This document shows, piece after piece, positions 10,720 through 27,691 of a DNA stretch of 64,000 nt. Position numbers and translations under genes: made by a program. This DNA comes from Lentilitoribacter sp. Alg239-R112. Its GTDB lineage: Bacteria; Pseudomonadota; Alphaproteobacteria; Rhizobiales; Rhizobiaceae. The notes beneath the pieces are model-generated. The model saw nothing but the letters and a program-made list of their open reading frames with translations, did not search any database and was not told the DNA's origin. How positions within the stretch are numbered: the first letter of the stretch is position 1; the number at the start of each line of letters is the position of its first letter. Location: positions 2,631,249 to 2,695,248 of the forward strand of contig NZ_LS999833.1 of NCBI RefSeq assembly GCF_900537175.1. Direction: 5' to 3'.

Positions 10720-13179
10720 CTATCCAACAAAGCAATCTTCGAGAATAACTTCCTTGTTCATTTCTTCATTAAGATTTACCAATTCATCTTGATTTTGAGT
10801 AGATTCAGCAAACCAAACATCTTCACTAAGGATAGTCTCACCATTAACTTCAGCAGTAGACTGCATCAATTCACGGCCTTCATCATCAAGAACGATTTTC
10901 ATATCAGTTGAGATTGAAGATACACCAGCTTCTTTTGCTGTCTGCATTTCACCATCTTCAAGAACCGCATCACCATCATCTATCCAGAGGCCAAGGCCTT
11001 CAAGCTCAACGCCGGAAACCATACCGTCACCGTCTTTATCGAAAACTTTCAGCTTTTCATAACCGTTGGCATATTTACCACCTTCGTCTCCAAAAAGAGC
11101 AGAACCATCGATTGAACCATTTTCGCCAACCTTCGAAAGATCAACCAAAATGCCGTCGCCTGAACCATCAACCCATTCAATTGTATCAAGTTCACCATCA
11201 GCATCTATATCGAACTGAACTGTGTTAACAACTTCATCATCAACATCTTTTTGATGAGAAGACGTTTCACCCGTTACTCCAATTTCACCGTCGCCGTTAA
11301 GATCAAGGACAATTGGCGAGACGCTTGCTTTATGATCTTTAATTGTGACTTCCAGGCAATTATCTTTAACAAGACAATCTCCGACACTTTCAACTGATAA
11401 TGTGAAAGTTTCGTTTCCTTCCACATCGCCGTTCGAGCCTTTATTTGTCTTAGCACCAACTTCAACTTCTTTGTTGGCTTGTATAGAGAAGGCTTCAGAT
11501 GTCTTTTCACCAGCTTTAACAAGAACTTTTACCGTGTCACCACTGACAATCTCACCGTCAGAATCGTAGACCAGAAAGTCATGAACAAGATTATCTACAC
11601 CAACAATATTGTCACGAGCGTTGCCATCACCGTCAGTATTTCCAGTTCTATAAATTTTGTCGTTGAGCCATACCTTTTCAACATTTTTCTGTTGAGTTTG
11701 GTTGGTCGTGTAATAAATTACATCTTCACCTTTAATGGTTCCAGGATTGAAAGGCTGACCATTTTTTACGTTTGGACCATAATAGACATTAAAATCTTTG
11801 TAACCTGTGCCGTCAGTTTGCTGTGCCGTATCGGAACCAATTTTCACTGTCACCCATGTATCTTCAGTAACAACTTCATCCAGTTTAACGGTGTATTCTT
11901 TAGGTGCATTGGTAAGACCTTCCCAGATCATGCTGCTACCTTCAATCTCAGCGCAAACCTCCTCTGGTTCTGGCGAACAAACGTCTTCTATGGAATACCA
12001 TTTACATTCACCTTTAAACCAAAAACCGCCAATGTCGGATATAGTATCCATGCCGCCATCTGGCTTGGTCACAGAAAAAGTTCCATCACCGTTATCAGTA
12101 AATATGTACTCGGAACGTGCACCATCATAATCGATCTGATTATAACCGGCATCACCACCATTGATCACATCATTGCCTTCAGACCCGTTGATGACATCAA
12201 CACCTTCGCCCGCATTAATTGTATCATCACCATCCGTACCAGATAGATAATCGTCTCCGTCAGTTCCCTCAATCGGGCCGCCAGTGTTTCCACCGTCAGT
12301 GTCAGATAGGACTTCTGAAAGTGGTTTCCACTCTTGAGAACCTTTAAACCAAAAACCATCAATATTTTTCAGTGTATCTATGCCACCATCGGGCTTAACC
12401 ACTGTGACCGAACCATCGTCATTTTTTGTAAATGTATAGTCAGAGGCTGCACCATCATAATCAACCTGATCATATTCAGCTCCGCCACCATCGATGTTAT
12501 CGTTGCCTTTAGAGCCATTGATGACATCTACACCGCCGCCTGATGAGATATCATCATTAGCATCTGTTCCATCGATATAATCATCTTCTGGGCCGCCGAT
12601 AATAATATTATTTCCAACTGCAACAACTGGAATGTCATCCGCAAATACAAGTTCAATCGCATCAAGATCACGAAACTCAACAGTTTCCACATCACGCAGT
12701 GTGTCAGATGTACCGTCCGGCTTAACAACAGTAATGTCGCCTTCTACATTACGTGTAAGCGTATAATCGCTTGATCGGCCTAAATATTGTACACTATCGT
12801 CGCCAGCACCAGCTTCATATATGTCATTGCCCGTGTCTGCAATGAACCTATCATTTCCGTCAGTTCCGGTAAATGTTTCATCATCATTGTTTGTGGCCAG
12901 AACATCGCTTAAAGGCATCCAAACACCTGCGTCTACAAACCAAAAACCACCAATATTCGAGATGATATCAGTTCCGCCATTTGGCTTCTTTACTGTGACA
13001 GTACCATCATTATTTTGGGTGAATGTATAATCGCTTGGGGAACCTGCATAATCTATTTGATTATAACCAGCATCACCGCCATCAATGCGGTCATTACCCG
13101 CTGAGCCAATGAACACATCTTGAGCAGAAGTTCCATCCAGTGTGTCGTCAGAAGATGTGCCGTTTATTAAGTTTGTCAT
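10720..13179 (-). CDS. RTX-like secreted calcium-binding repeat protein
   Basis: An 819-residue, very acidic protein without a Sec signal peptide. Residues 1-400 hold short hemolysin-type nonapeptide stretches (GSAGNDRIDGG, GSKGNDNIDGG, GSEGNDVINGG) each leading into a module of about 65 residues ending in (I/D)GGFWF...SDVL; four copies occur at about 30-94, 119-172, 228-292 and 338-400, the second the most divergent. Residues 410-615 look beta-rich, possibly Calx-beta-like. Residues 620-745 carry EF-hand/dockerin-like DxDxDG loops (DLNGDGEIG, DIDADGELD, DKDGDGMVS). A GAGG ribosome site precedes ATG 13179. Divergence from a type I secretion pair strongly suggests it is their substrate. Function after export (adhesin, matrix, enzyme carrier) is not known; no catalytic domain is seen. 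Confidence 0.85.
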   Translation of the reverse strand: MTNLINGTSSDDTLDGTSAQDVFIGSAGNDRIDGGDAGYNQIDYAGSPSDYTFTQNNDGTVTVKKPNGGTDIISNIGGFWFVDAGVWMPLSDVLATNNDDETFTGTDGNDRFIADTGNDIYEAGAGDDSVQYLGRSSDYTLTRNVEGDITVVKPDGTSDTLRDVETVEFRDLDAIELVFADDIPVVAVGNNIIIGGPEDDYIDGTDANDDISSGGGVDVINGSKGNDNIDGGGAEYDQVDYDGAASDYTFTKNDDGSVTVVKPDGGIDTLKNIDGFWFKGSQEWKPLSEVLSDTDGGNTGGPIEGTDGDDYLSGTDGDDTINAGEGVDVINGSEGNDVINGGDAGYNQIDYDGARSEYIFTDNGDGTFSVTKPDGGMDTISDIGGFWFKGECKWYSIEDVCSPEPEEVCAEIEGSSMIWEGLTNAPKEYTVKLDEVVTEDTWVTVKIGSDTAQQTDGTGYKDFNVYYGPNVKNGQPFNPGTIKGEDVIYYTTNQTQQKNVEKVWLNDKIYRTGNTDGDGNARDNIVGVDNLVHDFLVYDSDGEIVSGDTVKVLVKAGEKTSEAFSIQANKEVEVGAKTNKGSNGDVEGNETFTLSVESVGDCLVKDNCLEVTIKDHKASVSPIVLDLNGDGEIGVTGETSSHQKDVDDEVVNTVQFDIDADGELDTIEWVDGSGDGILVDLSKVGENGSIDGSALFGDEGGKYANGYEKLKVFDKDGDGMVSGVELEGLGLWIDDGDAVLEDGEMQTAKEAGVSSISTDMKIVLDDEGRELMQSTAEVNGETILSEDVWFAESTQNQDELVNLNEEMNKEVILEDCFVG
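11980..13092 (-). repeat. Four tandem-spaced ~65-residue modules in RTX-like protein
   Basis: In-frame repeats at 12898-13092, 12664-12825, 12304-12498 and 11980-12168. Each starts with a glycine-rich Ca-binding turn, then Q(I/V)DY.G..S(D/E)Y.F, a DG(T/S)..V.KP(D/N)GG segment and GGFWF or an equivalent. Copies 1, 3 and 4 are close; copy 2 is degenerate and lacks the FWF end. They are protein-level repeats, not a CRISPR or mobile element. Confidence 0.8.
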
Positions 13180-13584
13180 AGGAGCCTCAAATTGAATTTT
13201 GAATTTAAGGGTTTATTTCACAAAAAAACGAGCCTGTGTGTTTAAGCTGTTGTTAACTTTAACACATAAAAGTTGAATTAAATCCGAACGATAGCTCAAA
13301 CATCACAAGCACAACTAACTTTAGAAACAATCCACTTTACCAAAAACATTACACACATCGTTTGAATGGCTAACCTTTGAATTATCACCGGGATCAGTAA
13401 CCCACTCATAACTTTAATCTATTTTCAGACAATCACAGCTCACAGAGCTTCCGCGCGGGAACATTTGAAGTGACCGAAGAGCAGTAATCAACATTGTTTG
13501 CAATATTTAGCTCATGACATCTCGGTTACTCTTTTTTATACCTTTTGCGCTATAAACACCTGCATATGTTGTAGGAGTAGTGTT
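13180..13584. promoter_or_regulatory. Divergent promoter region of type I secretion locus
   Basis: A 405-base gap between the divergent RTX-like gene and the secretion ABC gene. It must hold both promoters. The clearest structure is an inverted repeat TGTGTTTAAG / CTTTAACACA at 13237-13266, nine of ten pairs matching across a 10-base centre, about 60 bases upstream of the RTX-like start; it could be an operator. No RNA gene or conserved ORF is apparent. A longer in-frame reading of the ABC gene from TTG 13498 exists but lacks a ribosome site. Confidence 0.4.
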
Positions 13585-15294
13585 GTGGCGTTGTCTCAGG
13601 TCTGTCGACCACTGTTAGTTTTTTCAATATTTTCGAATCTTTTGATGTTGGCAGCCCCCCTACATATGTTGCAGATATACGATCGGGTTCTATCTTCAGG
13701 CAGTGCTGAGACACTCATCTATATCAGCCTCATTGCCGCAGTAGCGCTTACATTATTCGGTATATGCGAAATGATCCGTGCGCGCATAGCACAGCGCCTG
13801 TCAACCCAATTCACAGTGAAGCATGCGGATGCACTATTTGCCGGAATGACGGGTGGTGCGGTGCCGGTTGAAAAATCAAACGAGATCATGAGAAGCTTCA
13901 ACACAGTGCGAACTTTTCTTGCAAGTCGCTCCTTAATCAGCCTTTATGACGTCCCCTTTTCGCCCTTCTTTTTGCTGCTCCTGTATCTTTTGAATTTTCA
14001 GGTCGGCCTATTAACAACCATCGGCGCAGGTGTATTGATAGCAGTCGCTTGGCTAAACAAGAAACTGACCAAAGACAGCCAAAAAAAAGCATCACAAACT
14101 GGCACCGAGGCAATAGCGTTTGCCAGTGCAATTGCCAGTCGCTCTGAAGATATCCGCGCAATGGGGCTTCTGCCAGCACTTGTTGACCGTTGGGGTAATA
14201 TGATGGGCGCCGCCATAAACGCTGAAGATGCATCAGTGAAACAAAGCTCCTTCTTTATGGCTTTGAGTAAATCGACACGCCAGATCCTACAAATCACGAT
14301 AATGGCTTGGGGCGCATGGCTTGTTCTAAACGGCGACATGTCTGGCGGAATGATTTTCGCGGCATCAATGATTTCGGGCAAAGTGCTTCAACCCATTGAA
14401 CAAATGATTGGCAGCTGGGATGGTATTAATCGTGCACAAAGTGCGTATACTGACCTTGAAAAAGTTCTGTACGGTCAAGAAAACAAAATCGAGAAAATTA
14501 CTCAACCTGATCCTTCCGGTCACTTAACTATCAGTAACGTCTCTCTTACATTAGACGGTCAAGATAAAAGCCTTGATATTCTCAAAGACATAAATTTCAA
14601 AGTATCTCCAGGAGAATTACTGGCCATTATTGGTCCGTCTGGATCAGGGAAATCAACTCTGGCCCGCATTATTGCAGGTGCTGCATCACCATCAACAGGC
14701 GAGGTCATGTTAGATGGATGCGTTCAAAAGAACTGGCCAACGGAACAATGGGGGCGTTGGGTCGGTTATGTTGGACAGGAAATTTTGCTGTTTCCGGGAA
14801 CTGTCGCTGAAAACATTTCTCGCATGTCGAGCGATGAAAATGAAGCACAAATCATAAAAGCTGCACAGCTCGCCGGCGCGCACAATCTCATCAACTCATT
14901 CCCCGACGGATACATGACCAAAATCGGCGGTGACGGAGTTCGATTATCAGGTGGACAAAAGCAACGGATTGCGCTCGCGCGAGCTCTTTACAGTTCTCCC
15001 AAGCTTCTGATTTTGGATGAGCCAAATGCTCACCTGGATCAAGAAGGCGAAAATATATTAATGAAATCATTAAATCGGCTTAAAAAGTCAGGTGTAGCGA
15101 TCATCATCGTTACGCAACGCAGAAGCATTCTTAAAACTGCAAACAGAATAATGATGATCAAAGAGGGTCGACAAGTTCCACTTAATGCCAATTCTGAACG
15201 GCCAAAACCAAAAACTACCGCAAATGCCGGCGAACCTGCTCCATATTCAAGTATCGCAAGACCTTACCCCTATAGAAGTCCGAAGAGTGCCTGA
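13585..15294 (+). CDS. Type I secretion ABC transporter/permease (PrtD/HlyB family)
   Basis: A fused membrane-ATPase exporter of about 569 residues. The N-terminal half has five to six membrane helices with PLHMLQIYDRVLSSGS and DVPFSPFFLLLLYLL, hallmarks of PrtD-type exporters that lack a peptidase or C39-like domain. The ATPase half has Walker [10 protein letters not shown], signature LSGGQKQR and Walker B LLILDEPNAHLD. I chose GTG 13585 because TAGGAG lies 7 bases upstream and the protein then begins at the usual family position (LSQVCRPLLV); the upstream extension from TTG 13498 is cysteine-rich and unlike the family. It is followed without a gap by the membrane-fusion partner. No TolC-type outer-membrane gene is in the window. 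Confidence 0.9.
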   Translation: MALSQVCRPLLVFSIFSNLLMLAAPLHMLQIYDRVLSSGSAETLIYISLIAAVALTLFGICEMIRARIAQRLSTQFTVKHADALFAGMTGGAVPVEKSNEIMRSFNTVRTFLASRSLISLYDVPFSPFFLLLLYLLNFQVGLLTTIGAGVLIAVAWLNKKLTKDSQKKASQTGTEAIAFASAIASRSEDIRAMGLLPALVDRWGNMMGAAINAEDASVKQSSFFMALSKSTRQILQITIMAWGAWLVLNGDMSGGMIFAASMISGKVLQPIEQMIGSWDGINRAQSAYTDLEKVLYGQENKIEKITQPDPSGHLTISNVSLTLDGQDKSLDILKDINFKVSPGELLAIIGPSGSGKSTLARIIAGAASPSTGEVMLDGCVQKNWPTEQWGRWVGYVGQEILLFPGTVAENISRMSSDENEAQIIKAAQLAGAHNLINSFPDGYMTKIGGDGVRLSGGQKQRIALARALYSSPKLLILDEPNAHLDQEGENILMKSLNRLKKSGVAIIIVTQRRSILKTANRIMMIKEGRQVPLNANSERPKPKTTANAGEPAPYSSIARPYPYRSPKSA

Positions 15295-15295
15295 T

Positions 15296-16729
15296 ATGAA
15301 AATCGTAAAGCAGCTCAGAGATCGGTTCACCGACTATCGAAGGAATGATAAATCATCATCCGAAAAGGCATTGCTTCAACCTCATGTAGGACATGAGTCC
15401 AAGAAACTAAACTGGAAAGATAATGTTTCAGCGGAAACAGCATCAATTTCCAGAAGAGGCTACATCGCTGTTGGAGTTACACTTTTTATATTTGTTTTGT
15501 GGGGAAGCTTCTCATCAATATCCGGTGCAGTGATCGCAAATGGGAAAATCATAATTGCCGGACAAAATAAATTGCTCCAACATCCAACCGGTGGTGTTGT
15601 AAGGCAAATCAGTGCCAAGGATGGCGCCTTTTTAAACAAAGGCGATCTAGTCGCCATAATCGATCCATCCGAAGCCATCTCCCAGCTTGCTCAGCTCCGC
15701 GCACGTAAAGACGTGTTAATTGCAACACAGAACAGAATTCGTTCTTCCCAAGTGGGCAGAATAGAAACGGCTAACCTTCGAGGTGAAACTTTCTATGGAA
15801 ATCTGCGAGGCGGCATTTATACAGAAGATAAAACCTACAACGAAGGGATATATCTCGCACAAATTGCAGAACTTAATGCAAGTTCTAACCTGCTCAGCCG
15901 GGAATTGTCAGCCCTCAAAAATCAACTATCTGCCCTGGAAAGCGAATATATAAGTGTTGGAAATCAAGCGGAACGAAATGAGCAACAGCTCGCACTTTTA
16001 AGTAAACAACTCAAAAACCTCAACACATTGAGAAACAGCGGATCCATCGCAGAAAACCAGGTTTGGCAGATTGAATCGCAGCGATTGACGACATTAGCAC
16101 GTCTTGATGAGCTAAAAGGCAGCTCCATTTCGCTTGTTAGTAGAATGGATGAAGTTGAGGATAGGATTGCTGTTCTAAAAGCAACCCGCAAACAAGACAA
16201 TTCTAGAGAACTCACAGATGTGTTATCAGAACTTGGCAGTATTAAAGAGCGGATCGAAGCGGCTGAGCGGGCGGTCGAATACTCTGAAATAAGAGCACCA
16301 GTTTCCGGTACGCTAACGAACCTAACGGCCAATACAATCGGCGGCGTCATAAATTCATCCGATATAATCGCCGAGATTGTGCCTTCTGGATCACCAGTAC
16401 AAGTCGAAGCAAGAATAATGCCCACGGACGTTGCATCGGTCTATATTGATCAAAATGCACGCGTGGTAATAACAGCATTTAATGCACGTCTTGTAGATCC
16501 TATCGATGGTAGGGTTAACTACATCTCAGCTGACTCTCAAATTGATCCCAGTACTGGTGAAACATATTTTACCGCACGCATTTCATTGCAACCTGATCAA
16601 GAGACTATCAGCCGTGTTCAAGCAGGTATGTACTCGCAAGTTTTCATAGAAACTGAAGCACGCAGCTTCTTCTCTTATGCACTACAACCTATCACAGACA
16701 GTTTTAGAAAAGCATTCCGAGAGAAGTAA
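15296..16729 (+). CDS. HlyD-family type I secretion membrane-fusion protein
   Basis: A 477-residue periplasmic adaptor. One membrane helix lies near residues 55-75 (GYIAVGVTLFIFVLWG), then a biotinyl-lipoyl-like half (NKLLQHPTGGVVRQI), a long coiled coil from about 140 to 320, the second lipoyl half (YSEIRAPVSGTLTNL) and a C-terminal barrel (GMYSQVFIETEARS). I prefer ATG 15296, one base after the stop of the ABC gene, to the longer frame from 15185, which would overlap that gene by 110 bases. It bridges the ABC exporter and an outer-membrane channel, which must be encoded elsewhere. Confidence 0.9.
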   Translation: MKIVKQLRDRFTDYRRNDKSSSEKALLQPHVGHESKKLNWKDNVSAETASISRRGYIAVGVTLFIFVLWGSFSSISGAVIANGKIIIAGQNKLLQHPTGGVVRQISAKDGAFLNKGDLVAIIDPSEAISQLAQLRARKDVLIATQNRIRSSQVGRIETANLRGETFYGNLRGGIYTEDKTYNEGIYLAQIAELNASSNLLSRELSALKNQLSALESEYISVGNQAERNEQQLALLSKQLKNLNTLRNSGSIAENQVWQIESQRLTTLARLDELKGSSISLVSRMDEVEDRIAVLKATRKQDNSRELTDVLSELGSIKERIEAAERAVEYSEIRAPVSGTLTNLTANTIGGVINSSDIIAEIVPSGSPVQVEARIMPTDVASVYIDQNARVVITAFNARLVDPIDGRVNYISADSQIDPSTGETYFTARISLQPDQETISRVQAGMYSQVFIETEARSFFSYALQPITDSFRKAFREK

Positions 16730-16807: not shown

Positions 16808-18313
16808 CTAATGCAGTGTAGATATTTTTCCACACTCAAAGTAGCATTGAAATTTAGAGCCTGATTTCCAACAACCAGCCCAACCACGCCAAGCAGATGC
16901 ATCTCGCATATCCGCTTTACATAATCGCGTCATGCAAGCCCACTCACCAGATTTACATCCGCGAGGCGCTCCATTGGTTATGACTTTCAAACTAGTTTGT
17001 AGATAACGATTACTTGTTGGAGTTGGGCGGTTTCCACCAGAAGATTTAGCAAGCTCTATCACAAATTCCAAACCAAGTTTTGCAAACCTGGTTTGGTGTG
17101 CACCAGTACTATCCATTACCGAAACCCTATCACGGGGAGAGTGTATCGCTCTATTATATTCTGAAAAAGCGCTTTCAAAAGGAAAGGCTGCAGGGAATTG
17201 ATGCCTATTCCAAGATGCATGATCAGAACACGCATACCCACATTGGGTATCTGCATATGTAATCCTATGTGCTCCATTCGCATTATACGTACGGATCAGG
17301 CGACGTAGAAAATTGGTCGCATTGGGGTTAACATTATCAGTCACAAAATACATATCTCGATTTGAACCACGAAATCCCGTCATATCAAACTGCAACACAC
17401 CAACGACATTGCGGTTTTCTCGACGATAACGCGCCGCAATATCACCTGAACCACGAAGGCCAACTTCTTCAGCGGCATAAGCCATGAATTGGATTGTCCG
17501 TTTAGGTCGAAAATTCATTTGTGTTAAAACTCTCAAAACTTCACTGACAACAGCAATACCGGAACCATTATCGTCAGCCCCGGGTGCATCATTGTGGTCA
17601 TTAGCATTCATCGAATCCAGGTGACCACCAATCACGACAATTTCGTTTGGTTTTTCACTCCCGCGTATTGTTGCAACAACACTGTCCTGTAACCAGGAGT
17701 GACCAATTCGCTCTACGCTGAAATCACCCCGCCCTGCACCATATCCATTCCACAATGCTTGCACACGTATTGCAGCCTCCTGCCCACCAGAGGTTTGGTA
17801 ATGACGTGTTCCTAGGTTCTCCATTTGTCGGATTGTTGATATAATCGTTGAAGGTTGCACCAAGCCAAGCGCACGATTAACTGGGATTGCCTGATCCAGA
17901 GGCTCATTGAATATGCCAACAGCATGGGTGAAATCGGACTGATAAACTGGATTATTTAGCTCAGAAAGCGCAGCTTCACGGCTTTCATGAACAGTATAGC
18001 CACCGCAACGGTTGAACTTTTCATGCATTGTCTCGTGCAAGAATGGCGTTAGGTTTGGCTCTATACGCGCTATGGTACGACCATTTTCCTCAGTATTAAT
18101 AGCAAAAAGAGGCGCGTCATTTACATCTATAAATTTGCTCGCTAAATCGTTAGTCAACGCCTGTGCCGCATCCGTACCCATAACGATCCATTCTTCGGCA
18201 TTCGAATTTATACCCTGATCCTCGCCATTTTGCGCTATGGCCTGCCCCATGCCATTCAAAACAATTCCACAAAAAACTGCGGCTATATATAATCTACTTC
18301 GCATAACAACCAC
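16808..18313 (-). CDS. Secreted M28-family zinc aminopeptidase with C-terminal six-Cys domain
   Basis: A 501-residue exported peptidase. Signal peptide ends near GMGQAIAQ. The M28 catalytic core shows all metal ligands in order: IGGHLDS, GADDNGSG, AAEEVGLRGSG, LQFDMTG and the final His in RAIHSPRD. The closest known type is Vibrio-style leucine aminopeptidase. After a Ser/Pro/Thr linker (SSGGNRPTPTS) residues 435-501 form a 67-residue domain with six cysteines and the core WRGWAGCWK, shared with the two upstream neighbours. Enzyme class is confident. The C-terminal domain could bind a substrate or surface, or serve in sorting; no function is known to me. Confidence 0.88.
   Translation of the reverse strand: MVVMRSRLYIAAVFCGIVLNGMGQAIAQNGEDQGINSNAEEWIVMGTDAAQALTNDLASKFIDVNDAPLFAINTEENGRTIARIEPNLTPFLHETMHEKFNRCGGYTVHESREAALSELNNPVYQSDFTHAVGIFNEPLDQAIPVNRALGLVQPSTIISTIRQMENLGTRHYQTSGGQEAAIRVQALWNGYGAGRGDFSVERIGHSWLQDSVVATIRGSEKPNEIVVIGGHLDSMNANDHNDAPGADDNGSGIAVVSEVLRVLTQMNFRPKRTIQFMAYAAEEVGLRGSGDIAARYRRENRNVVGVLQFDMTGFRGSNRDMYFVTDNVNPNATNFLRRLIRTYNANGAHRITYADTQCGYACSDHASWNRHQFPAAFPFESAFSEYNRAIHSPRDRVSVMDSTGAHQTRFAKLGLEFVIELAKSSGGNRPTPTSNRYLQTSLKVITNGAPRGCKSGEWACMTRLCKADMRDASAWRGWAGCWKSGSKFQCYFECGKISTLH
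16811..17011 (-). repeat. Six-Cys C-terminal domain, copy 1 (M28 peptidase)
   Basis: Codons 435-501 of the M28 peptidase. The 67-residue domain aligns without gaps to the copies in the M4 peptidase (42 of 67 identical by hand count) and the small secreted protein (45 of 67). All six cysteines are conserved. Confidence 0.9.
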
Positions 18314-18332
18314 CTTTGATCTTAGAAACTAA

Positions 18333-18363
18333 AATAGAAAAGGCCCGGCAATTTTGCCGAGCC
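18333..18363 (-). terminator. Intrinsic terminator after M4 peptidase gene
   Basis: On the minus strand GGCTCGGCAA and TTGCCGGGCC pair (one mismatch) around AA, followed by TTTTCTATTTT. It lies just past the M4 peptidase stop and 20 bases before the M28 start, so the M28 gene probably has its own promoter or relies on read-through. Confidence 0.8.
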
Positions 18364-18376
18364 CCACCCTGGGAGG

Positions 18377-20209
18377 TTAAAAGAGTTTACGGACCTGACC
18401 GCATTCAAAATTACAGGTGTAACTTGAACCTTCTTTCCAACAGCCAGCCCATCCACGCCAAGCAGATTGGTCGCGAAGATCTGCCTTACAAATGCGCGTC
18501 ATACAACTCCAGTCACTTGAACCGCACCCGCGCGATGCTGAACTGGAGATAACTCTCAGCGTTGTATAAATATATCGGTTACCTGTTGCTGGTGGTGTCA
18601 GATTAATACCCACTTGTTTGAATGCATGGATAACATCAGCTTCTGCGTAGCGTAATCGTTTTGCGGCCTTCAAAACCTTGGCTGCGCCATTGCGGAATGT
18701 CTCGTTTGGGACCCAATAATTCTGGTTGGCAACCACAAATATATCAAATGCCTTTTTTACATTCCAGCCAGGGCGCTTCGATAATATACAGAAGGCTTTG
18801 TTATAGATGCCACTTGAATAATGAACATCCATACCGGGTCGATAGTCACGAATATGCCCGATTGAACGTCCATCAAGGGGCGGATTACACATATATCGCA
18901 ATGCTTTTCCTGATGCTTTAAAGATATCAGCTCCAGTTTCCAGATCAGGCATAGTGCGCCCAGAGAATAACTGACCGCGGTTCTGCGCAAACCAATATTC
19001 TACAGCTTCACCAGCCATGTCAGAAAAGGCTTCATTCATACCACCTGACTCATTACGATAAACCAAACCAGAGTTCTGCTCGGTAAAACCATGTGCAACC
19101 TCATGGGCAGTCACATCCATTGATACCAATGGATGAAAACGTGTTGCTCCATCACCAAAGGTCATTTGACGCCCGTTCCAAAATGCATTCTCATAATTGT
19201 TGGAATAATGAACTCGCATATGTAGCTGATTGGTCAAAGGGCTGGTGCCATACCAATCCTGAAACATATCAAAGACGACTTTACCGAACCCTTGCGCATC
19301 GTTCAAAGGAGAGCGAGCACCATTTATCGGGCGACGCGTATTGTTAAAACAATTATAGGAATAAGCACGGCCTGACCCAGACGTTCTATTATTTAGATCT
19401 TCTGTTTTGATGGTCGGTATTTCCATTTTGCAGTTATTGCCAGAACGAGTTACTTCAAACTTAGGTGCTGTCCCCGTTCCCCATGTGTATGTTCCCGTTT
19501 TGCTATTTCCAGCAGGACCAGTGCCCAACTCAGCGAACTGAATATTGTCGAAGCTATCCAATGTTTCGCCAGTTTCTGCATCGATTATTGTCACAGGGCG
19601 CGCTGGTTTTAACCCGCCACCATCATCAATCACCGTGGTGAAAAACGACGTAACATACGACAGGCGTAATTGTTGATCTGATGTGACAAAGTATACAAGG
19701 GATGATTCCTCGTTCTCAAACGGTGCAAGCTCAGAGCTTTCTTCATTACTCAATGCTGCTCGGGGCGTAAGACGTGTTAATGCTTCTTTGGCCCGCTCTA
19801 ACGCCTGGTCAGCAGAAAGTGTAGCAGTCGGAGCACCCGACTCTTCTGGCCCTATATCAAAAACTGCAGTGCCTTCTAAACCAATGGATCGTCCCGTTTC
19901 ATCTTGTTCAACAATCACAAGCTGGTTCCAGATAGGAATACCATTGAGTGTTTGAGTGAACCTCGAAGTTCGCCCGGCATTATTTGGAAGCGTATTGCTT
20001 TTCTCCAATGTAAGACTGGATGATTGATCTAATCCAATCGCATTCGCAGTCGCTTCGCCGAGAGCTTCAGGTGAACCGGACGATTCTGCAAGTCCCGTCA
20101 GATTTGGTGCAAATTCGCTAATGTTGCGAACTTCTGCACTTAATACACTGGAAGTGAGCAGAGCTGTTATGGTCGTGGCCAGCAATGTGACCTTTGTAAC
20201 GGATATCAT
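18377..20209 (-). CDS. Secreted M4 (thermolysin-like) metalloprotease with C-terminal six-Cys domain
   Basis: A 610-residue preproprotease. A signal peptide (ends near SSVLSAE) is followed by an FTP/PepSY propeptide to about residue 230 that normally acts as chaperone and inhibitor. The catalytic domain has the zinc motif HEVAH near residue 370, the third ligand glutamate in GGMNEAFSD about 24 residues on, and the proton-donor region DVHYSSGIYNKAF. It therefore has all thermolysin active-site elements. Residues 544-610 are the 67-residue six-cysteine domain shared with the adjacent genes. Such proteases degrade extracellular protein after autocatalytic maturation. Whether the C-terminal domain stays attached is unknown. 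Confidence 0.92.
   Translation of the reverse strand: MISVTKVTLLATTITALLTSSVLSAEVRNISEFAPNLTGLAESSGSPEALGEATANAIGLDQSSSLTLEKSNTLPNNAGRTSRFTQTLNGIPIWNQLVIVEQDETGRSIGLEGTAVFDIGPEESGAPTATLSADQALERAKEALTRLTPRAALSNEESSELAPFENEESSLVYFVTSDQQLRLSYVTSFFTTVIDDGGGLKPARPVTIIDAETGETLDSFDNIQFAELGTGPAGNSKTGTYTWGTGTAPKFEVTRSGNNCKMEIPTIKTEDLNNRTSGSGRAYSYNCFNNTRRPINGARSPLNDAQGFGKVVFDMFQDWYGTSPLTNQLHMRVHYSNNYENAFWNGRQMTFGDGATRFHPLVSMDVTAHEVAHGFTEQNSGLVYRNESGGMNEAFSDMAGEAVEYWFAQNRGQLFSGRTMPDLETGADIFKASGKALRYMCNPPLDGRSIGHIRDYRPGMDVHYSSGIYNKAFCILSKRPGWNVKKAFDIFVVANQNYWVPNETFRNGAAKVLKAAKRLRYAEADVIHAFKQVGINLTPPATGNRYIYTTLRVISSSASRGCGSSDWSCMTRICKADLRDQSAWRGWAGCWKEGSSYTCNFECGQVRKLF
18380..18580 (-). repeat. Six-Cys C-terminal domain, copy 2 (M4 protease)
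   Basis: Codons 544-610 of the M4 protease. By hand alignment 48 of 67 residues match the stand-alone copy at 20237-20437. Conserved core: CMTR(I/L)CKAD, SAWRGWAGCWK and FECG. Confidence 0.9.
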
Positions 20210-20233
20210 TATCTCTTCCTTTCCATCTTAAAA

Positions 20234-20680
20234 TTAGAACGCGTTGCGAGTTTGGCCACATTCAAAATAGCAGATAAATTTGCTACCCTTCTTCCAGCAA
20301 CCAGCCCAGCCGCGCCAAGCGCTTTGCGTCCGTAGGTCAGCTTTGCAAAGGCGTGTCATGCAGTTCCAATTACCACTGCTACAGCCACGCGTATTACCAT
20401 TGCTGATAACGCGAAGAGTTGTATAGATGTAGCGCTTGGCAGCTGCCGTTGCAGCCTCATTATCAGCGGCAGACATGTGTCCGTCAGCACCAGGTTGCTG
20501 ACCTTCAGGTTCAGCAAACGACACTTCATTGCCAGCGGCTTCAGCGTCAGCGAATAAGGAGGAAATTGCCTCCGGCATATCCTCTGGCGCAGCAGCATCT
20601 TGCGCAACCGCAATGTTGGACAATCCAAATGAAAAGGCAACTGCGCCTACAATAAATGCGGACTTTAGGTATTCAAACAT
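20234..20680 (-). CDS. Small secreted protein carrying only the six-Cys domain
   Basis: A 148-residue protein I cannot assign to a known family. Residues 1-26 form a signal peptide (cleavage near AVAQ-DA). Residues 27-81 are an acidic, Ala/Glu/Pro-rich, probably disordered linker. Residues 82-148 are the 67-residue six-cysteine domain otherwise found at the C-termini of the two downstream peptidases. It lies 24 bases upstream of the M4 gene on the same strand and is probably co-transcribed with it. It might be a binding partner, competitor or anchor for the proteases, or a toxin-like effector; none of these is shown by the sequence. Confidence 0.82.
   Translation of the reverse strand: MFEYLKSAFIVGAVAFSFGLSNIAVAQDAAAPEDMPEAISSLFADAEAAGNEVSFAEPEGQQPGADGHMSAADNEAATAAAKRYIYTTLRVISNGNTRGCSSGNWNCMTRLCKADLRTQSAWRGWAGCWKKGSKFICYFECGQTRNAF
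20237..20437 (-). repeat. Six-Cys C-terminal domain, copy 3 (stand-alone protein)
   Basis: Codons 82-148 of the small secreted protein; the same length as the peptidase copies with no gaps. Six cysteines at domain positions 19, 26, 31, 47, 56 and 60 are shared by all three. Confidence 0.9.
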
Positions 20681-20753
20681 GATGTTTCTCCTGTGCGATT
20701 TTCACGAAATTAAAGGTGAATCCTCCACCCGTAATCATGAAACCAAATCAGGG

Positions 20754-20796
20754 CTCTTTTTGCGTCACCCATTAGGGGGACGGATGCCAAAAAGAG
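20754..20796 (-). terminator. Hairpin after di-haem cytochrome gene, possible terminator
   Basis: CTCTTTTTG (20754-20762) pairs with CAAAAAGAG (20788-20796), with further imperfect GTC/GAC pairing inside. It lies about 55 bases past the cytochrome gene and 75 bases before the small secreted protein gene. The U tract is inside the arm rather than after it, so strength is uncertain. Confidence 0.5.
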
Positions 20797-20850
20797 TTAC
20801 AAAACAACTTCTCTATATCTAAATTGCAAAACCTATGATCTGCATTTTCC

Positions 20851-22815
20851 TCAAAGAGTTTTTAAATATTCCACCAGTTCCAAACGTTCCTCATGAGACA
20901 GTTCCGATGATCCGTATTCATGGCCTGAATTGTAATTTCCCGGAATTGGATTTCCAAATTCATCAACAATATCAAAGCGAAATGGCAACAAACTAGTGCC
21001 ATCGGAAAATGTTGTAATCGGAGAATCGTCAGTTTTAAAACCTACTCGCTCCGCATCGAACTCACGAGAGCCAACATGAAAACTTAAAGGACGGTCCGTG
21101 GATTTCGGCTCACGCATTGTTTCACCATCTTTCAGAACTGTGCGCAAATGTGAAGGTAGAAGCAAGTCGTAGAGAGTTGGAACGGACCCATTATGGAGAT
21201 AAGGAGCCGTTGCCCATATGCCATTTAAGGGGCGCGCTTTATACGCTACGATCGTCGCATCATCACTAGCATTTTCTGATGTTAAGCAAGCCTTCGCGAG
21301 AACCTGTTTATCGGATGACGAGCTACCGGGAAGATATTGCTTTCCTGTATCTGCTTCATCTGGGGGAGCACCCCTGAACCCACCGATCACATCTCCAATC
21401 ACACTATCAAGCACTTCATCAAGTTTACCAATAACGACACCCGCTGCCGCGTTTTTTAGCATGAAAGTTGTGCTATCAATCTCCTTAATCGGATCACCTT
21501 TTATGATGAAAGGTTTTCTGTTTTCATAACGTCCAGCCTTAGCCATATGCAACAACGTGTTGCAGGCAAGCATGACATCAGTGCCCGCTTCTTCTACGCC
21601 AGACATTGTTACCTTTATAGGAGAAGTGATATCCCCCTGTTCCAAATCTTCATGACATTGCGCACATTTTTGAGACAGGAAATGTTCACGCCCCCTTTCC
21701 GCCTTTTCCCGATCAATTGCTCCAAACACATTTTCCGGCCATAAAGGGGAGCCAAGTTTTTCAAGTGTCTGTTCCAGATCAATCATCTCTTTCACGCGAA
21801 CGCTGGAGTCATAACCCAAAAAATCAGGCTTCCATTTTCTATTGATTTCTACATGAGCAAAAACGCCGATCACCTCTGAAATATTGCGAATTAGCCCGCC
21901 AACATCGGTTGTCTTTCCAAAGATTGGTAACTTCACAATTTCACCGGCAATACCGTTCCATTGAATTTTGTCTTGCTGGGATGTATTCCAGATATGAGGA
22001 TAACTTGCGGGCGCATTAGATTTTACTAGTTGATCAATCTGCCCACCTTTTCCAATATAAGTGACTTTGTTAAGGATATGCCCTTGCGCATCAAGACGAC
22101 CGTAACCGTAGCGGACGTCTGAGTTATTCATCTCCAATAACTGCCCACGATATGTGGCAAGTTCCATGACTTGTACTTGCAGTGTTTTTCGTTCACCCAT
22201 GCTATGGCTTGAACCTAGAACCTGATTGGCAAATCGATTGAGCTTATCTTCATCTGTCGAGGTCGCGACCAAGGATTTATGGAGATCCTCGAGCATCATT
22301 TGAAAATCGGCGAGTGTTGGTGCACCTTCCACGCGTACTGTTTTACCGCCAAACCTAATATCCGTCGTATGGCAGGCCGAGCAATTTAAGCCAAGCCATT
22401 CTTGACGCATAATGCGCCCTGCACAAATATTTGGAAATGTTTGACACATCATGTCCGCACTTCTCTTTGGATCATAATCAACAACAAATCCAACAGGTAA
22501 CCCATGAGGGTTTACCGATGAACGAGCGTCTGAAAGATATCCATACCGTTCAATATTCCTAGGCGAAAGGAATGGTTCACCGCTATTGGCCTCCTCAAGT
22601 GCCTTCATCCACGCTAAAGGTATAAGACGCGAACCTTGACTTGTCCGATACCAAAATGCCCGATCTGCCTCACTCCAATTTTGATCAAGACATTCTATAA
22701 CATCTGAACAGGGAGATGCCGCACTTGCAGTATTTATGAAAGCCGCATTCATAGACGGAATGCTCATTGCCGCAAGAAGCGTTAATGTAAAAATTGAGAT
22801 CGGTCTCATGATCAT
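20851..22815 (-). CDS. RoxA-like di-haem c-type cytochrome / peroxidase
   Basis: A 654-residue exported cytochrome. A signal peptide runs to about residue 33. Two haem-binding CxxCH motifs are present, CSACH near residue 144 and CAQCH near 386, and a C-terminal TAPYLHNGSVPTLYDLLLP, typical of the di-haem cytochrome c peroxidase superfamily and in particular of the longer RoxA/RoxB rubber-oxygenase-like branch. These proteins work in the periplasm or outside the cell, either reducing peroxide or cleaving unsaturated polymers with oxygen. RoxA-like activity is a guess from length and motifs. It is three bases from the trypsin-like protease gene upstream and clearly in the same operon. Confidence 0.82.
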   Translation of the reverse strand: MIMRPISIFTLTLLAAMSIPSMNAAFINTASAASPCSDVIECLDQNWSEADRAFWYRTSQGSRLIPLAWMKALEEANSGEPFLSPRNIERYGYLSDARSSVNPHGLPVGFVVDYDPKRSADMMCQTFPNICAGRIMRQEWLGLNCSACHTTDIRFGGKTVRVEGAPTLADFQMMLEDLHKSLVATSTDEDKLNRFANQVLGSSHSMGERKTLQVQVMELATYRGQLLEMNNSDVRYGYGRLDAQGHILNKVTYIGKGGQIDQLVKSNAPASYPHIWNTSQQDKIQWNGIAGEIVKLPIFGKTTDVGGLIRNISEVIGVFAHVEINRKWKPDFLGYDSSVRVKEMIDLEQTLEKLGSPLWPENVFGAIDREKAERGREHFLSQKCAQCHEDLEQGDITSPIKVTMSGVEEAGTDVMLACNTLLHMAKAGRYENRKPFIIKGDPIKEIDSTTFMLKNAAAGVVIGKLDEVLDSVIGDVIGGFRGAPPDEADTGKQYLPGSSSSDKQVLAKACLTSENASDDATIVAYKARPLNGIWATAPYLHNGSVPTLYDLLLPSHLRTVLKDGETMREPKSTDRPLSFHVGSREFDAERVGFKTDDSPITTFSDGTSLLPFRFDIVDEFGNPIPGNYNSGHEYGSSELSHEERLELVEYLKTL

Positions 22816-22818
22816 CTG

Positions 22819-24090
22819 TCAGTTTCCTTCGGTTGGGGCAGCGGTACTTGCGCCTTCTGTTTCATTATTCATAGAATTCGAGTTTTCCGGAAATGGAGTC
22901 GTTTCAGGATCAGATGCTTCTGGCTCGTTACTTGTGGTTGGCAAAAAACTGGTAATAATCGGGACAATTTTTTCCGCTCTCACGGCGCGGTTCACTTGCG
23001 AATAAGTGCCAAAACTTGTTCGCCCCCAATGATGAAGGCCAACCACATCACCAGTTTTATCGATAACCGGAGAACCCGATGAACCACCTAATGTGTCACA
23101 ACGGTGCGAAAAATCTGTCTGTTCTGCTCGCCCGGGAGAAATAGCTTCTGCAACTTCACATCCAAGCGCAGATATCTGTTTTGCTTCACCGGCAGGGTGT
23201 TGGAGAATGAAAACGGCTTGACCCGATTTTGGGGCCGTTGGTGAAAATGCCAATGTACCCCATCGTAAACCAGGCTTGCCCTCAATTCGCAATAGCGCCA
23301 TATCATGGTCGTTATCCACACTTTCGACCTTGGTGCAAGAATACTGCTCCATACCCGGAATGCGCCCAGCCTGATCATAAGCGTAGCCGAATATAACTTT
23401 AGTCGTATCACAACGTTCCTGATCTGCAACGCAATGTTGATTTGTCATGAGCAAATCATTATCGATCAAAAACCCTGTACAAGTTTCGCGTACTGTACCT
23501 TGTTGGCGTTTTACTAAAAAAGAGAGTTTAGCAACGCTACCGCGAGCGCGTTCTGCAACATCAAGAAAGTCTCCATTATATTTATACAGATGTTCGCGAT
23601 CATCCGTTCCTACAACCGACTCTAGCGTTCGCCCTTCTCGGTCAAATGAAATCTGTTCAATTGTAAAACTAAGAGAACCTTTGCGATTACCATAAACGTA
23701 AAGCCCAATAGACTGACCGACACTTAAATCAGTCCAAACCGATGTACTAACTCCGATTGATTCTGCCGTTAATGTTTGCAGCACTGCGCCGGAATGATTG
23801 ATGATTTCAATCTGAAAAAAGTCACCTGCATCATAGGTAATATCTGAAATTTTCAACTGCACCATTTTAGCACCAGGACGAAGCTCGCTATAGGCCCATA
23901 CCGCAGCACCACGCGAATTGTTAGCACTGCTTTCCTCCGGCGGCGGCGGATATTTAACCCCCAACGCCTCAACAACGCCTTCGATATGAGGAACGGAAAG
24001 TAACGGCACCGGTGCTTCATCCTGCGCAGCTACGGGAGCGGATACAAGACAGATAAAACCAAAACTCAATACCGTAATTAAGCGAGACAT
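22819..24090 (-). CDS. Secreted trypsin-like (S1) serine protease
   Basis: About 423 residues from the chosen start. ATG 24090 (MSRLITVLSFGFIC) is preferred to 24135 because it begins a signal peptide, has TAGGAG upstream and avoids overlapping the subtilase gene. A beta-rich N-terminal domain of about 180 residues precedes the protease. The triad is visible: His in MTNQHCV near 219, Asp in DHDMALLRI near 263, Ser in GGSSGSPV near 337. This is the V8/glutamyl-endopeptidase-like bacterial branch. The C-terminal tail is Thr/Glu/Asn-rich and disordered. It sits between the subtilase and the cytochrome gene in one operon. Confidence 0.88.
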   Translation of the reverse strand: MSRLITVLSFGFICLVSAPVAAQDEAPVPLLSVPHIEGVVEALGVKYPPPPEESSANNSRGAAVWAYSELRPGAKMVQLKISDITYDAGDFFQIEIINHSGAVLQTLTAESIGVSTSVWTDLSVGQSIGLYVYGNRKGSLSFTIEQISFDREGRTLESVVGTDDREHLYKYNGDFLDVAERARGSVAKLSFLVKRQQGTVRETCTGFLIDNDLLMTNQHCVADQERCDTTKVIFGYAYDQAGRIPGMEQYSCTKVESVDNDHDMALLRIEGKPGLRWGTLAFSPTAPKSGQAVFILQHPAGEAKQISALGCEVAEAISPGRAEQTDFSHRCDTLGGSSGSPVIDKTGDVVGLHHWGRTSFGTYSQVNRAVRAEKIVPIITSFLPTTSNEPEASDPETTPFPENSNSMNNETEGASTAAPTEGN

Positions 24091-24103
24091 AACGGAGTTA
24101 CTC

Positions 24104-26458
24104 CTATTCCAACGCTTTAATAAAATCGCGAACATCCCGGAGAGGAAAATTATGAAAACTGCCAGCAGCGCGAGTAGAGCAATTCTTCACGAATTCAGCT
24201 TTGAAATTCATTTTTCGATCAAGGTCATCATCTTTCAATCGATAATTCTGCTGCCTGAGTTTAGACTGAGGCATATCCATAATGAGACGCGTGTCAGCAT
24301 TACTATTGTAGAAAATTCGAAGAATTTCTGTGACTTCTATACGGTGTTCACTCGTGCCCGTTTCCTTTGCCTTGGAACGAATTTCATCATCTCCAGATAG
24401 ATTATCAAATCGTCCACGCATTTCGCAGCCGTCGGCAAGCCGAACGAAATCATGTGCAAAGTCTAAAGCTAGGCGTGCATTGATCAACGTCGCTGAGGAT
24501 GCATGAAGCAGATCACTATCCAGAATGGCCGTCGTGACAAGTCTCCGTTTAATTTGCTTAAAATCACGTATGCCCATGCGCATTAAATAACTTACAACAG
24601 ACGTTACAACTGGTGCAGCTTGCGAAGTTCCCGAAAGCGCACCCATCTGATCACCGGCAACAGGTGCAACCAGGTCCGCCCCAATTGCACCAATTTCGTG
24701 AAATGCCGCACCAATATTGGTTCCAGGCAGGATCGAAAGTGTGCCATCTTCCTGATGGTCAAGCGCCACAACAGATATAACATTGTCGCTTTGAATACAT
24801 GCAGGCACAATCGAGCAAGATACATCTTCATCACCCGTTCCCGCCGGGGCAACAAATAATACATTTCGTTTATATTGTTTGATCGCATCAACCAATGGCG
24901 TGCTTCCAGACCGAGGCCAAGACAGACTGATATTGACTAAATCGGGGCCATGGATGGCCATGCTTTTGATTGTATCAGTTAAGGCTCGCGTTTTCTCAGG
25001 ACCGTTTGGTACAGCAATATGATAAATTGTAACCGGAGGTTCTTCAATTTGCGGATTAGGCGTGATCGGTAAATTGGGATCCATTGCAAGCGCCAAATCT
25101 GCTAATAAGCCTAACGTGTGAGTTCCATGATTTCCCTGTGCCAAAACAACCGGATTGTAGTTACCGCAATCAGACATCTCAATTGTCGGCTCGGCATGTA
25201 TAGCATCTTCTACAACGTCAGTTTCCTCAGTGTCGGACACTGGTTGCACTAACGGAGTGTTCGCTCCGTTGGTATCTGACGAAGCAACTTCATGCGGAAT
25301 ATCAGTTGTTTCTGAATGTACACTTGATGATGTCTCTGTCGAAGGTTCCATTGGGGGAAACACTACTGTTTCAAAAGTACCTTCATCAGTCCAACGCTTT
25401 AGTTTAAGTTGCCCGCTTTGTACAAATTGGCGGAATATACAATGATCGAGCTGTGCCTCCTCATCCACATGAACAATCCGAATAGGACGAATAGGTAAAC
25501 CATCCTGCCAAGAACGAAACGGCTTGCCGTTGTCCTCAATTAAACCCATTAATCTGCGGCTAAGCATACTTTTTTCCAGCGATTCCGTCTTAGCCGAGCG
25601 CTGGATTAAAACCCGCTGTGAGAATTGATCTGAATCACCAACAAGGCTTTCAAGTTTGATAGATTCAATTGCCAAATCCACATCAAGTGTCGGAATTGCA
25701 ACAAGCCAGCTGTCACTATCCTTTGTTCCGATTTTCCGCAAAAATGAAGGGTTAGCAATGGCCTCGTAGCGATTTAGGTCAGCATTACCATCATCAATAA
25801 ATCGATAGATAACCGGTTCCTCAGCTTCCCATGCCCCCTTTTCAATTCGGCTACGACAATGTTCCTTATTATTTGGAAATTTCCGACAAAATAGCTGCAA
25901 AAAATCGGATGTCTGTTCAAATACCGCCTCGGTTTTTGAAAGAGATAACTCATACTTTGAACGAACTCCAAAATCATAATCGAGCTTTAATTCAACATCA
26001 GGCACGATCATTTTTCGACCGGGCCAGGCGCCAGCCCAGTTTCCTGTCGATACCACAGTACCGGAAATAGTTGCTAAATCCTGCACAGAGTCCTTCTGGC
26101 TTGCAGAACGTATTTTTCGATCGCATATATCAGCATTCAAATCACAAAGCAGACTGTCTAAGATTTCAGGAGCATAATTGGTTAGCCATTTGGGCCAGGC
26201 ACCTGCGCGAATGAGAACATCGGAAACACGATCACCGGATTGTATAGTTTCAAGCCGCGTGGGTAGCGCATTTTTCTCATGAAGCAGAACATATAAACGA
26301 GCAAGCTCTCTTTGGACTTCATCACGACTAATGACTTCTTGTCGCCAGTCAAAAGTCTCTTGTGACAAAGAAGCTTGTTCCGCGCTCGCCTGATTTTGGA
26401 AACTCACAAAGCACACAACCACCAACAACGATAATAACAACCGATGAATGCAATTCAT
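24104..26458 (-). CDS. Secreted subtilisin-like (S8) serine protease
   Basis: A 784-residue exported subtilase. A signal peptide ends near NQASAEQ. About 300 residues with no domain I recognise precede the catalytic part. Triad candidates in S8 order are Asp in IVHVDEE near 331, His in GNHGTHTLG near 444 and Ser in ALSGTSQAAPV near 612. The Asp motif is less canonical than usual (no DTG), and an acidic insert of about 60 residues rich in Ser/Thr/Glu lies between Asp and His. About 120 residues follow the Ser. It is 13 bases from the S1 protease start and likely co-expressed with it and the cytochrome. Confidence 0.85.
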   Translation of the reverse strand: MNCIHRLLLSLLVVVCFVSFQNQASAEQASLSQETFDWRQEVISRDEVQRELARLYVLLHEKNALPTRLETIQSGDRVSDVLIRAGAWPKWLTNYAPEILDSLLCDLNADICDRKIRSASQKDSVQDLATISGTVVSTGNWAGAWPGRKMIVPDVELKLDYDFGVRSKYELSLSKTEAVFEQTSDFLQLFCRKFPNNKEHCRSRIEKGAWEAEEPVIYRFIDDGNADLNRYEAIANPSFLRKIGTKDSDSWLVAIPTLDVDLAIESIKLESLVGDSDQFSQRVLIQRSAKTESLEKSMLSRRLMGLIEDNGKPFRSWQDGLPIRPIRIVHVDEEAQLDHCIFRQFVQSGQLKLKRWTDEGTFETVVFPPMEPSTETSSSVHSETTDIPHEVASSDTNGANTPLVQPVSDTEETDVVEDAIHAEPTIEMSDCGNYNPVVLAQGNHGTHTLGLLADLALAMDPNLPITPNPQIEEPPVTIYHIAVPNGPEKTRALTDTIKSMAIHGPDLVNISLSWPRSGSTPLVDAIKQYKRNVLFVAPAGTGDEDVSCSIVPACIQSDNVISVVALDHQEDGTLSILPGTNIGAAFHEIGAIGADLVAPVAGDQMGALSGTSQAAPVVTSVVSYLMRMGIRDFKQIKRRLVTTAILDSDLLHASSATLINARLALDFAHDFVRLADGCEMRGRFDNLSGDDEIRSKAKETGTSEHRIEVTEILRIFYNSNADTRLIMDMPQSKLRQQNYRLKDDDLDRKMNFKAEFVKNCSTRAAGSFHNFPLRDVRDFIKALE

Positions 26459-26485: not shown

Positions 26486-27691
26486 TTAGCTACCCTTTAA
26501 AACTCCGTCATCACCCGATTGGGGGATGGATTGTTCATCGTTTTCTTTTATGATGATTTGATTAGAATATTGTAGAGCCAACCGCATAAGCTGCGTTCGG
26601 TTTGAGGACATTGTTTTTTGCAAGACGCATTTAACCTGCGTATTGACAGTTTCCCGTGAACGTTCTCTTTGCTCGCTAATCTCGCTATTGGTTAGACCCA
26701 GCGTCAGCAATTCTAAAACTTCAGCTTCTGTCGGTGTCAACGAAAAAAACTGCGCCATGCCTTCGGTATCAATATCAATATCTAAACTCGTGTCGAGCGA
26801 GAATATTGCATAACCATTCAATGTTTCGCCATTCATGAAATTTGGTTCTTTAAGCGGGCAAACTTCAATGCAGAGGGCATTTTCATGATGAGCGAGTGGT
26901 TGAAGCAAAGCCTCTTTTCTAGGTCGAGCACCAAAAAGACCATGTGCGTTGATATCGGAGAACAGACGCGAGAGGCGCTCATTTTCTTTGTCTAGTCTTG
27001 CAACAAGTCGGTTCTCGGCGGTGAGTTGAAACGCGCCATAACAATCCATCTGTCTTTGAAATTCAGTATTGGAAAATAGCAACTCACCTCTGCGATCAAG
27101 AAGTGCAACACCAACACGTAACTGGTCGTAACCCTTAGATAGTAAATCACTTTTCTGATTTAAACGACTAGTATGTCGCCCGATATTCAACGCTTTAGCA
27201 ATATGCGGCAAAACACGATTAAGAATCCTAAGACGCTCACCACTAGGGAAGCTTGATTTTTCAGAGAACTGTAATGCAAATCGATCTGCGGAAATTCTGT
27301 CTTTGTTTAGGAGGCCACCCATACGATAAAAAATCCCGAAATCACGCATCGCAGCAGCATTTGCACGTTTCATAAGTTCATCTCGAGTTGGAGCAAGCAC
27401 GTCATCGCGCACCAGTTCCACATGGTCCAACTCTCGCGAATGGCGCGCAAAAAGTGCTTGATCTTCCAATTCAAGCAAGCGGTATTCAACAAGGTATTGG
27501 CGAACTAAATCAGCTTGATAGTTGGAACTAAAATATGTTGCATTCAATACTTCCTGACCATAACGATTTTCAACATCAAAAACGAATGCGCCCCGAGCGT
27601 CGATAAGTTCGGCGAGTCGATGCAAAATACCTGGCCATTGCTCAGGATCCAAAGTAGCATCGTATATATCGAGTATCAGTTCCGATTCCAC
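26486..27691 (-). CDS. LuxR-type transcriptional regulator
   Basis: About 401 residues with a C-terminal LuxR/FixJ helix-turn-helix (LTPTEAEVLELLTLGLTN, SRETVNTQVKCVLQK). The N-terminal 330 residues have no receiver signature and may be a PAS-like sensor, as in other stand-alone alphaproteobacterial LuxR proteins. I chose GTG 27691 (VESELILDIYD) because GGAGG lies 7 bases upstream; the frame extends to 27760 but that extension is Cys/Ser-rich and lacks a ribosome site. It lies 27 bases upstream of the subtilase gene, so it probably heads and controls the secreted-hydrolase operon. The signal is unknown. Confidence 0.85.
   Translation of the reverse strand: MESELILDIYDATLDPEQWPGILHRLAELIDARGAFVFDVENRYGQEVLNATYFSSNYQADLVRQYLVEYRLLELEDQALFARHSRELDHVELVRDDVLAPTRDELMKRANAAAMRDFGIFYRMGGLLNKDRISADRFALQFSEKSSFPSGERLRILNRVLPHIAKALNIGRHTSRLNQKSDLLSKGYDQLRVGVALLDRRGELLFSNTEFQRQMDCYGAFQLTAENRLVARLDKENERLSRLFSDINAHGLFGARPRKEALLQPLAHHENALCIEVCPLKEPNFMNGETLNGYAIFSLDTSLDIDIDTEGMAQFFSLTPTEAEVLELLTLGLTNSEISEQRERSRETVNTQVKCVLQKTMSSNRTQLMRLALQYSNQIIIKENDEQSIPQSGDDGVLKGS

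Follow-up and report, generated by a model that had tools for sequence, protein, structure and literature searches.

The window, i.e., the whole stretch of 64,000 nucleotides that was analyzed, carries a cluster of genes on the minus strand in the order LuxR-type regulator, subtilase-like protein, trypsin-like protease, di-heme cytochrome, small secreted protein, M4 peptidase, and M28 peptidase. The last three of these proteins end in the same domain of 67 residues. The features of the locus are as follows:

16808-18313, minus strand: precursor of an M28 aminopeptidase-like protein, LapA-like, 501 aa (Pfam and NCBIfam)
16811-17011, minus strand: domain copy 1, residues 435-501 of the M28 peptidase (ORF and alignment)
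18377-20209, minus strand: precursor of an M4 (thermolysin/ProA-like) peptidase, 610 aa (Pfam and NCBIfam), with HEVAH at residue 369
18380-18580, minus strand: domain copy 2, residues 544-610 of the M4 peptidase (ORF and alignment)
20234-20680, minus strand: small secreted pro-protein, 148 aa, consisting of a likely signal peptide, an acidic propiece, and the domain
20237-20437, minus strand: domain copy 3 (net charge +10), residues 82-148 of the small secreted protein
20438-20602, minus strand: acidic propiece (net charge -12) that follows the likely signal peptide of the small protein
20851-22815, minus strand: di-heme cytochrome c peroxidase-like protein (NF040606, 566 bits)
22819-24135, minus strand: trypsin-like serine protease, whose His, Asp, and Ser motifs align with those of Mesorhizobium and the genome G1018
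24104-26458, minus strand: subtilase-like protein with a long N-terminal extension
26486-27760, minus strand: LuxR-type (GerE) regulator, the first gene of the conserved cluster

The end of the signal peptide in the small protein was set by an A-Q pattern, not by a predictor. The assignment of the two large proteins to peptidase families M28 and M4, made in the preceding sequence-only reading, held in profile searches against Pfam (M28: PF04389, E 3e-40; M4: PF01447, E 6e-33, and PF02868, E 2.6e-33), and peptidase motifs were found in the M4, M28, and trypsin-like proteins of the window. The best NCBIfam matches of the peptidase parts were the models of Legionella-type ProA (M4) and LapA (M28), NF045902 and NF045908, with scores of 329.8 and 191.9 bits, which are under the curated cut-offs of 900 and 600. 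The profile match stopped at residue 423 on the M28 protein and at residue 537 on the M4 protein, in both cases short of the domain. Thus, the domain is a clean add-on behind a complete enzyme. Its position after the end of both profile matches distinguishes the window proteins from the Legionella-type ProA/LapA, as does the lack of a type II secretin GspD over the cut-off in the genome of the window.

The alignment of the M28, M4, and small-protein C-termini comprised 67 columns with zero gaps. The pairwise identities of 42, 45, and 48 of 67 residues, which had been counted by hand, were reproduced, whereas 20,000 shuffles of each pair gave 4.4-4.5 identities on average and 13-14 at most. These three were the only convincing copies in the genome of the window, where two further matches had E values of 0.36 and 2.0.

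Sequence and distribution of the domain family

None of the C-terminal copies of the three window proteins had a Pfam or NCBIfam match at E <= 1, in scans where the HMMER filters drop most weak matches. When 23 diverse copies were each compared with Pfam and PHROGs, and when PDB sequences were searched with the domain, only chance-level matches were obtained. The literature search on the domain or on C-terminal modules of M4/M28 peptidases yielded no description, although one may be in print elsewhere. The 67-residue domain is, as the failure to recognize a known module had suggested, a real and rare family absent from all libraries searched.

Among 5.8 billion proteins, the small-protein query found 43, one of which was the window's own and one an M4 fragment, while the longer carriers of the domain numbered 13 (eight M4 peptidases including the window's own, four M28 peptidases, and one S8 subtilase); these searches covered lengths of 0.55 to 1.75 times each query, so that carriers far above this range may have escaped them. 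A profile built from 42 small proteins, applied to the 8000 candidates with the most shared words, matched at least 52 proteins, including two more M28 fragments.

The cysteine pattern C-x6-C-x4-C-x14/15-C-x7/8-C-x3-C was present in 62 of 64 copies, and the last cysteine was located exactly 7 residues from the C-terminus in 63 of 64. The six cysteines, described earlier as invariant in the three window copies, were kept in 63/64 copies. The exception, the metagenomic small protein P0060, is devoid of the WRGWAGC segment including one cysteine, possibly owing to an assembly error. Invariant positions in the 23 diverse copies were Y3, L8, R17, G18, C19, W24, C26, M27, C31, and D34, followed by A40, W41, R42, G43, W44, G46, C47, C56, F58, and C60; distant members found later vary at some of them (for example, W44 is replaced in P0064 and P0065). 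The mean net charge of the domain was +3.5 in the small proteins, +4.7 in the M4 peptidases, and +4.9 in the M28 peptidases.

Two AlphaFold models (domain pLDDT 73-84 and 59-83) predicted, with modest confidence, a beta-alpha-beta-beta fold. A weak Foldseek match (E 0.27, probability 0.90) was to chain 5gyy_G in the structure of a plant receptor complex; we take this chain to be a defensin-like ligand. The six cysteines and the predicted beta-alpha-beta-beta order resemble those of the bacterial cis-defensins (CS-alpha-beta; PMC11561630). The cysteine pattern by which such defensins are detected in that paper, CX(2,18)CX(3)CX(2,12)CX(4,17)CXC, fitted 0 of 63 copies and 0 of the 3 window copies.

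In genome samples, with the center genome counted each time, the domain was detected in 1 of 297 genomes of the order, 2 of 295 genomes of the Roseovarius family, 2 of 198 genomes of the Mesorhizobium family, 1 of 18 genomes within the genus of G1018, and 2 of 151 genomes related to that of the window, where G1232 shares coordinates with G1018; a few copies may be missed, as only part of the first-look candidates were scored (mostly 16 to 40 per genome). The class-level search gave 6/385 genomes at E <= 0.01 and 1/385 once weak matches were removed; the five dropped matches (E 0.001 to 0.009) fell, as judged by eye, in reading frames or proteins that lack the motif. No domain match was obtained in three congeners of the window's genome, which were 82, 99, and 87% complete. 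With regard to a mobile or viral origin, searches of plasmids (72,556 records), phages (50,697 records), and IMG/VR gave no match. Immediately before the Roseovarius cluster there are ORFs that presumably resemble transposases (L007 2991-5224), which would suit the sporadic spread of the cluster.

Gene cluster and evolution of the copies

A contig scan revealed four loci in three named genomes, those of Mesorhizobium microcysteis MaA-C15, an uncultured Roseovarius, and a Boseongicola MAG. Each of the five genomes examined had one small protein together with one or two domain-bearing peptidases. All seven cluster genes were present in G1018, and M. microcysteis had the same order as the window, minus the M28 gene. 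In Roseovarius, the cluster contained genes for a trypsin-like protein, for a subtilase whose N-terminal extension is long, for the small protein, and for a domain-bearing S8 subtilase. The trypsin-like protein of Roseovarius had no BLAST match to that of the window (E <= 1e-3), and the subtilases shared 27% identity over 176 residues only; therefore, both Roseovarius proteins are considered to be of the same kind as those of the window but not necessarily orthologous. In the Boseongicola MAG, the small protein was followed by an S8 gene interrupted by the contig end, and we take the second domain copy of this MAG, a contig-end fragment, as the missing end of that gene. Thus, S8 represents a third, unrelated carrier class in Roseovarius and Boseongicola. 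The subtilase of the window (E <= 1e-15) was found in exactly those 2 of 198 Mesorhizobium-family genomes that bear the domain, and the di-heme gene NF040606 occurred in three of the five domain-bearing genomes, inside the cluster in all three. The sequence-only reading had missed the gene cluster and the S8 class, as well as the charge-balanced propiece described below.

At the expected oxyanion residue, the subtilase of the window has AGT where Mesorhizobium and G1018 have AGN (Thr for Asn) and may therefore be weakly active. A gap of 170 bases (20681-20850) precedes the small gene and is about 135 bases long in Mesorhizobium and about 180 in G1018. It divides the unit of the small, M4, and M28 genes from the upstream genes, and this unit may have its own promoter there. 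No clear common site was apparent by eye upstream of the small gene or upstream of the LuxR gene.

The domain had been thought to spread among unrelated peptidases by fusion or gene conversion. On the tree of the 57 copies then known, which was built on 67 columns and in which the bootstrap had not settled, the host-protein labels required 7 changes, compared with a mean of 14.5 for shuffled labels (0 of 200 as low). The nearest neighbors of the window's M4 copy were other M4 copies, whereas its M28 copy was nearest to the M28 copy P0047 and then to the M4 copy of the window itself. A weakly supported group (84/88) united six M4 and five M28 copies, with three other M4 copies unresolved outside it; a single clade of all M4 copies was neither found nor rejected (p-AU 0.136), and a single M28 clade was likewise not rejected. 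The Roseovarius S8 copy, the sole S8 copy in the tree, grouped with small proteins from Roseovarius and Boseongicola (98/89), which points to two or more fusions. Because the copies mostly group by host protein, recent gene conversion is unlikely. Thus, fusion stands as the mode of spread, while the second part of the earlier proposal is less supported.

Charge balance of the small protein

The small protein begins with a likely signal peptide, which ends before A-Q, and continues through an acidic segment about 50 residues long into the domain. The net charges of the propiece and the domain were negatively correlated in all 49 small proteins when a fixed 45-residue segment was used (r = -0.78), as well as in the 40 of 49 with a recognizable signal end (r = -0.81, rho = -0.87) and after thinning to 28 sequences (r = -0.82). 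Phylogenetic contrasts for those 40 proteins gave r = -0.62 (p = 3e-5); among the 39 contrasts, 24 had opposite signs and 7 the same sign, and the rest were zero. As controls, the charges of the two domain halves correlated positively (r = +0.70), the signal-peptide charge did not track the domain charge in the contrasts (r = 0.09), and the segment preceding the domain in 17 domain-bearing peptidases had no charge link with it (r = +0.13). A general evening of charge along proteins does not account for the correlation, because the domain halves covary and the peptidases show no such link. The domain was positive in 40 of 49 small proteins and had a net charge of 0 or below in the other 9, including that of Roseovarius (-2); the Roseovarius S8 copy had a net charge of 0.

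The propiece also carries an MPxE[IV]-type motif in 39 of 49 sequences (permissive pattern), which suggests that it may do more than supply charge. In the comparison of the window, G1018, and Mesorhizobium, the identity of the domain was 72-82% for the M4 copy and 71-79% for the small copy, against 76-79% for the M4 core, whereas the small protein outside the domain was 35-44% identical. The domain is thus about as conserved as the M4 core, and a constant partner or ligand is probable.

The arrangement of a likely signal peptide, an acidic propiece, and a mostly cationic C-terminal part is shared with the precursors of antimicrobial peptides (defensin-type prepropeptides), and so is the negative correlation between propiece and mature-part charges: in the small proteins, as in those precursors, the charge of the propiece balances that of the mature part. 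This correlation corresponds to the Net Charge Balance Hypothesis argued for animal antimicrobial peptides in the accessible part of PMC7073735. According to the same part of that paper, the correlation was -0.40 in one frog species and -0.31 in another, whereas a third species had none, and the precedent is therefore itself weak in part. The small protein differs from such precursors in that it is bacterial, its domain is highly conserved, and this domain is also fused to peptidases.

Candidate role of the domain

We propose, at a probability of slightly less than one half, that the domain is a disulfide-stabilized binding module that is used free, as a masked pro-protein, and fused, as a targeting tail of peptidases. 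The domain would be a Trp/Arg-rich and usually cationic module forming the extreme C-terminus, with the predicted beta-alpha-beta-beta order. In the free form, the acidic propiece would neutralize the domain in cis until it is removed; in the fused form, the tail would bring M4, M28, and S8 peptidases to the surface or polymer bound by the free domain. Processing might be carried out by the subtilase and the trypsin-like protease of the cluster, or by the M4 enzyme itself, and the peptidase motifs in the M4, M28, and trypsin-like proteins make processing within the cluster possible. In this scheme, we infer the disulfide bonds, export, cleavage, binding to an anionic target, and the processing enzymes. 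The conservation of the domain at the level of the M4 core, the charge balance, and the position behind complete peptidase profiles support such a module. The nine small-protein domains that are not cationic argue against this proposal and against a plain antimicrobial reading, and the conservation of the domain, unlike that of rapidly evolving weapons, counts against the proposed role. It is also weakened by the modest confidence of the fold, by the propiece motif, by the partly weak frog precedent, and by the low similarity of the putative processing proteins in Roseovarius to those of the window.

Secreted peptidases with an additional module at the C-terminus are already known, the PPC domain (PF04151) being likewise found on peptidases of different families. 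The PPC fold is all-beta, whereas the domain described here has six cysteines and a predicted alpha/beta fold and is also made as a free pro-protein. PF04151 had no match in the three window proteins (E <= 1), and the Roseovarius S8 protein had a sub-threshold PPC match at residues 570-660, ahead of the domain. The putative targeting role is modelled by analogy on an M4 peptidase whose PPC domains, according to PMC3327674, bind protein substrates. The domain sequence is new, as is its double use, including the charge-balanced free pro-protein.

The earlier suggestion of a binding, anchoring, or secretion/sorting function was upheld in part: binding is plausible, whereas a dedicated secretion signal is not supported. 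In the genome of the window, the search for GspD gave a secretin only below the cut-off (110.5 bits vs 351.35), with a PF13629 N-terminal region. Among the five domain-bearing genomes, weaker secretin matches were present in all, and GspD exceeded the cut-off in G677 alone; thus, as judged from this secretin alone, the domain does not act as a signal for type II export in most carriers examined. More generally, a C-terminal sorting, anchoring, or secretion tag read by a dedicated machine, perhaps the subtilase/trypsin pair, that releases or anchors the carriers would agree with the extreme C-terminal location at a fixed distance of 7 residues past the last cysteine, with the attachment to unrelated enzymes, and with the finding that, of 198 genomes, the same 2 had both the domain and the subtilase of the window. 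Known sorting tags are short or end in a membrane segment and are found on many proteins per genome, whereas here there are 2-3 carriers per genome. Since, in addition, no Pfam or NCBIfam tag model matched the three proteins (E <= 1, with filters that drop weak matches) and GspD passed in only one of five genomes, we consider a sorting tag unlikely.

Docking of the small protein to its sister peptidases is doubtful to a similar degree. The small protein would contact them domain-to-domain as an inhibitor, chaperone, or scaffold, and the conserved propiece helix would be the active part. The ratio of one small protein to one or two adjacent peptidases in the five genomes fits such a partnership, as do the motif in 39 of 49 propieces, where a helix is predicted at residues 37-48, and the high conservation of the domain, which suits a protein partner. 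However, the charge balance links the propiece and the domain of one and the same small protein, and the N-terminal part of that protein is just 35-44% identical. Enzymes of the MauG type oxidize or cross-link tryptophans, and the di-heme enzyme of the cluster could by analogy act on the conserved tryptophans of the domain. Its gene is located in the cluster in three of five genomes, and W24, W41, and W44 are invariant in the 23 diverse copies; nevertheless, Roseovarius and Boseongicola keep the tryptophans without an NF040606 gene (E <= 1e-10), and the replacement of W44 in P0064 and P0065 also makes this modification highly improbable.

An extension of the preferred reading, that of a binding module masked when free and targeting when fused, would unite the locus into a one-operon effector: a charge-masked, disulfide-rich peptide resembling an animal antimicrobial propeptide, together with a homing tail of three peptidase families, both co-activated by a protease cascade of the cluster. 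This extension is speculative, and we think it rather less probable than its failure; if it were true, the peptide and the proteases would converge on one cell surface. The binding-module reading offers a concrete hypothesis of how a sticky cationic module is prevented from doing harm while the bacterium exports it, for a family that lies outside all libraries searched and has a consistent gene cluster. Charge balance in a bacterial family of peptidase tails would allow the interchangeability of targeting domains and antimicrobial-type peptides to be tested.

Next to the cluster, positions 10720-16729 of the window encode an ABC transporter for type I secretion (TIGR01842, PrtD type) together with an HlyD-type adaptor. 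This pair is adjoined by a protein of 819 aa with repeated Gly/Asp-rich segments, recognized by eye, which is perhaps its substrate. A related ABC/HlyD pair is located about 10 kb off the cluster in G1018.
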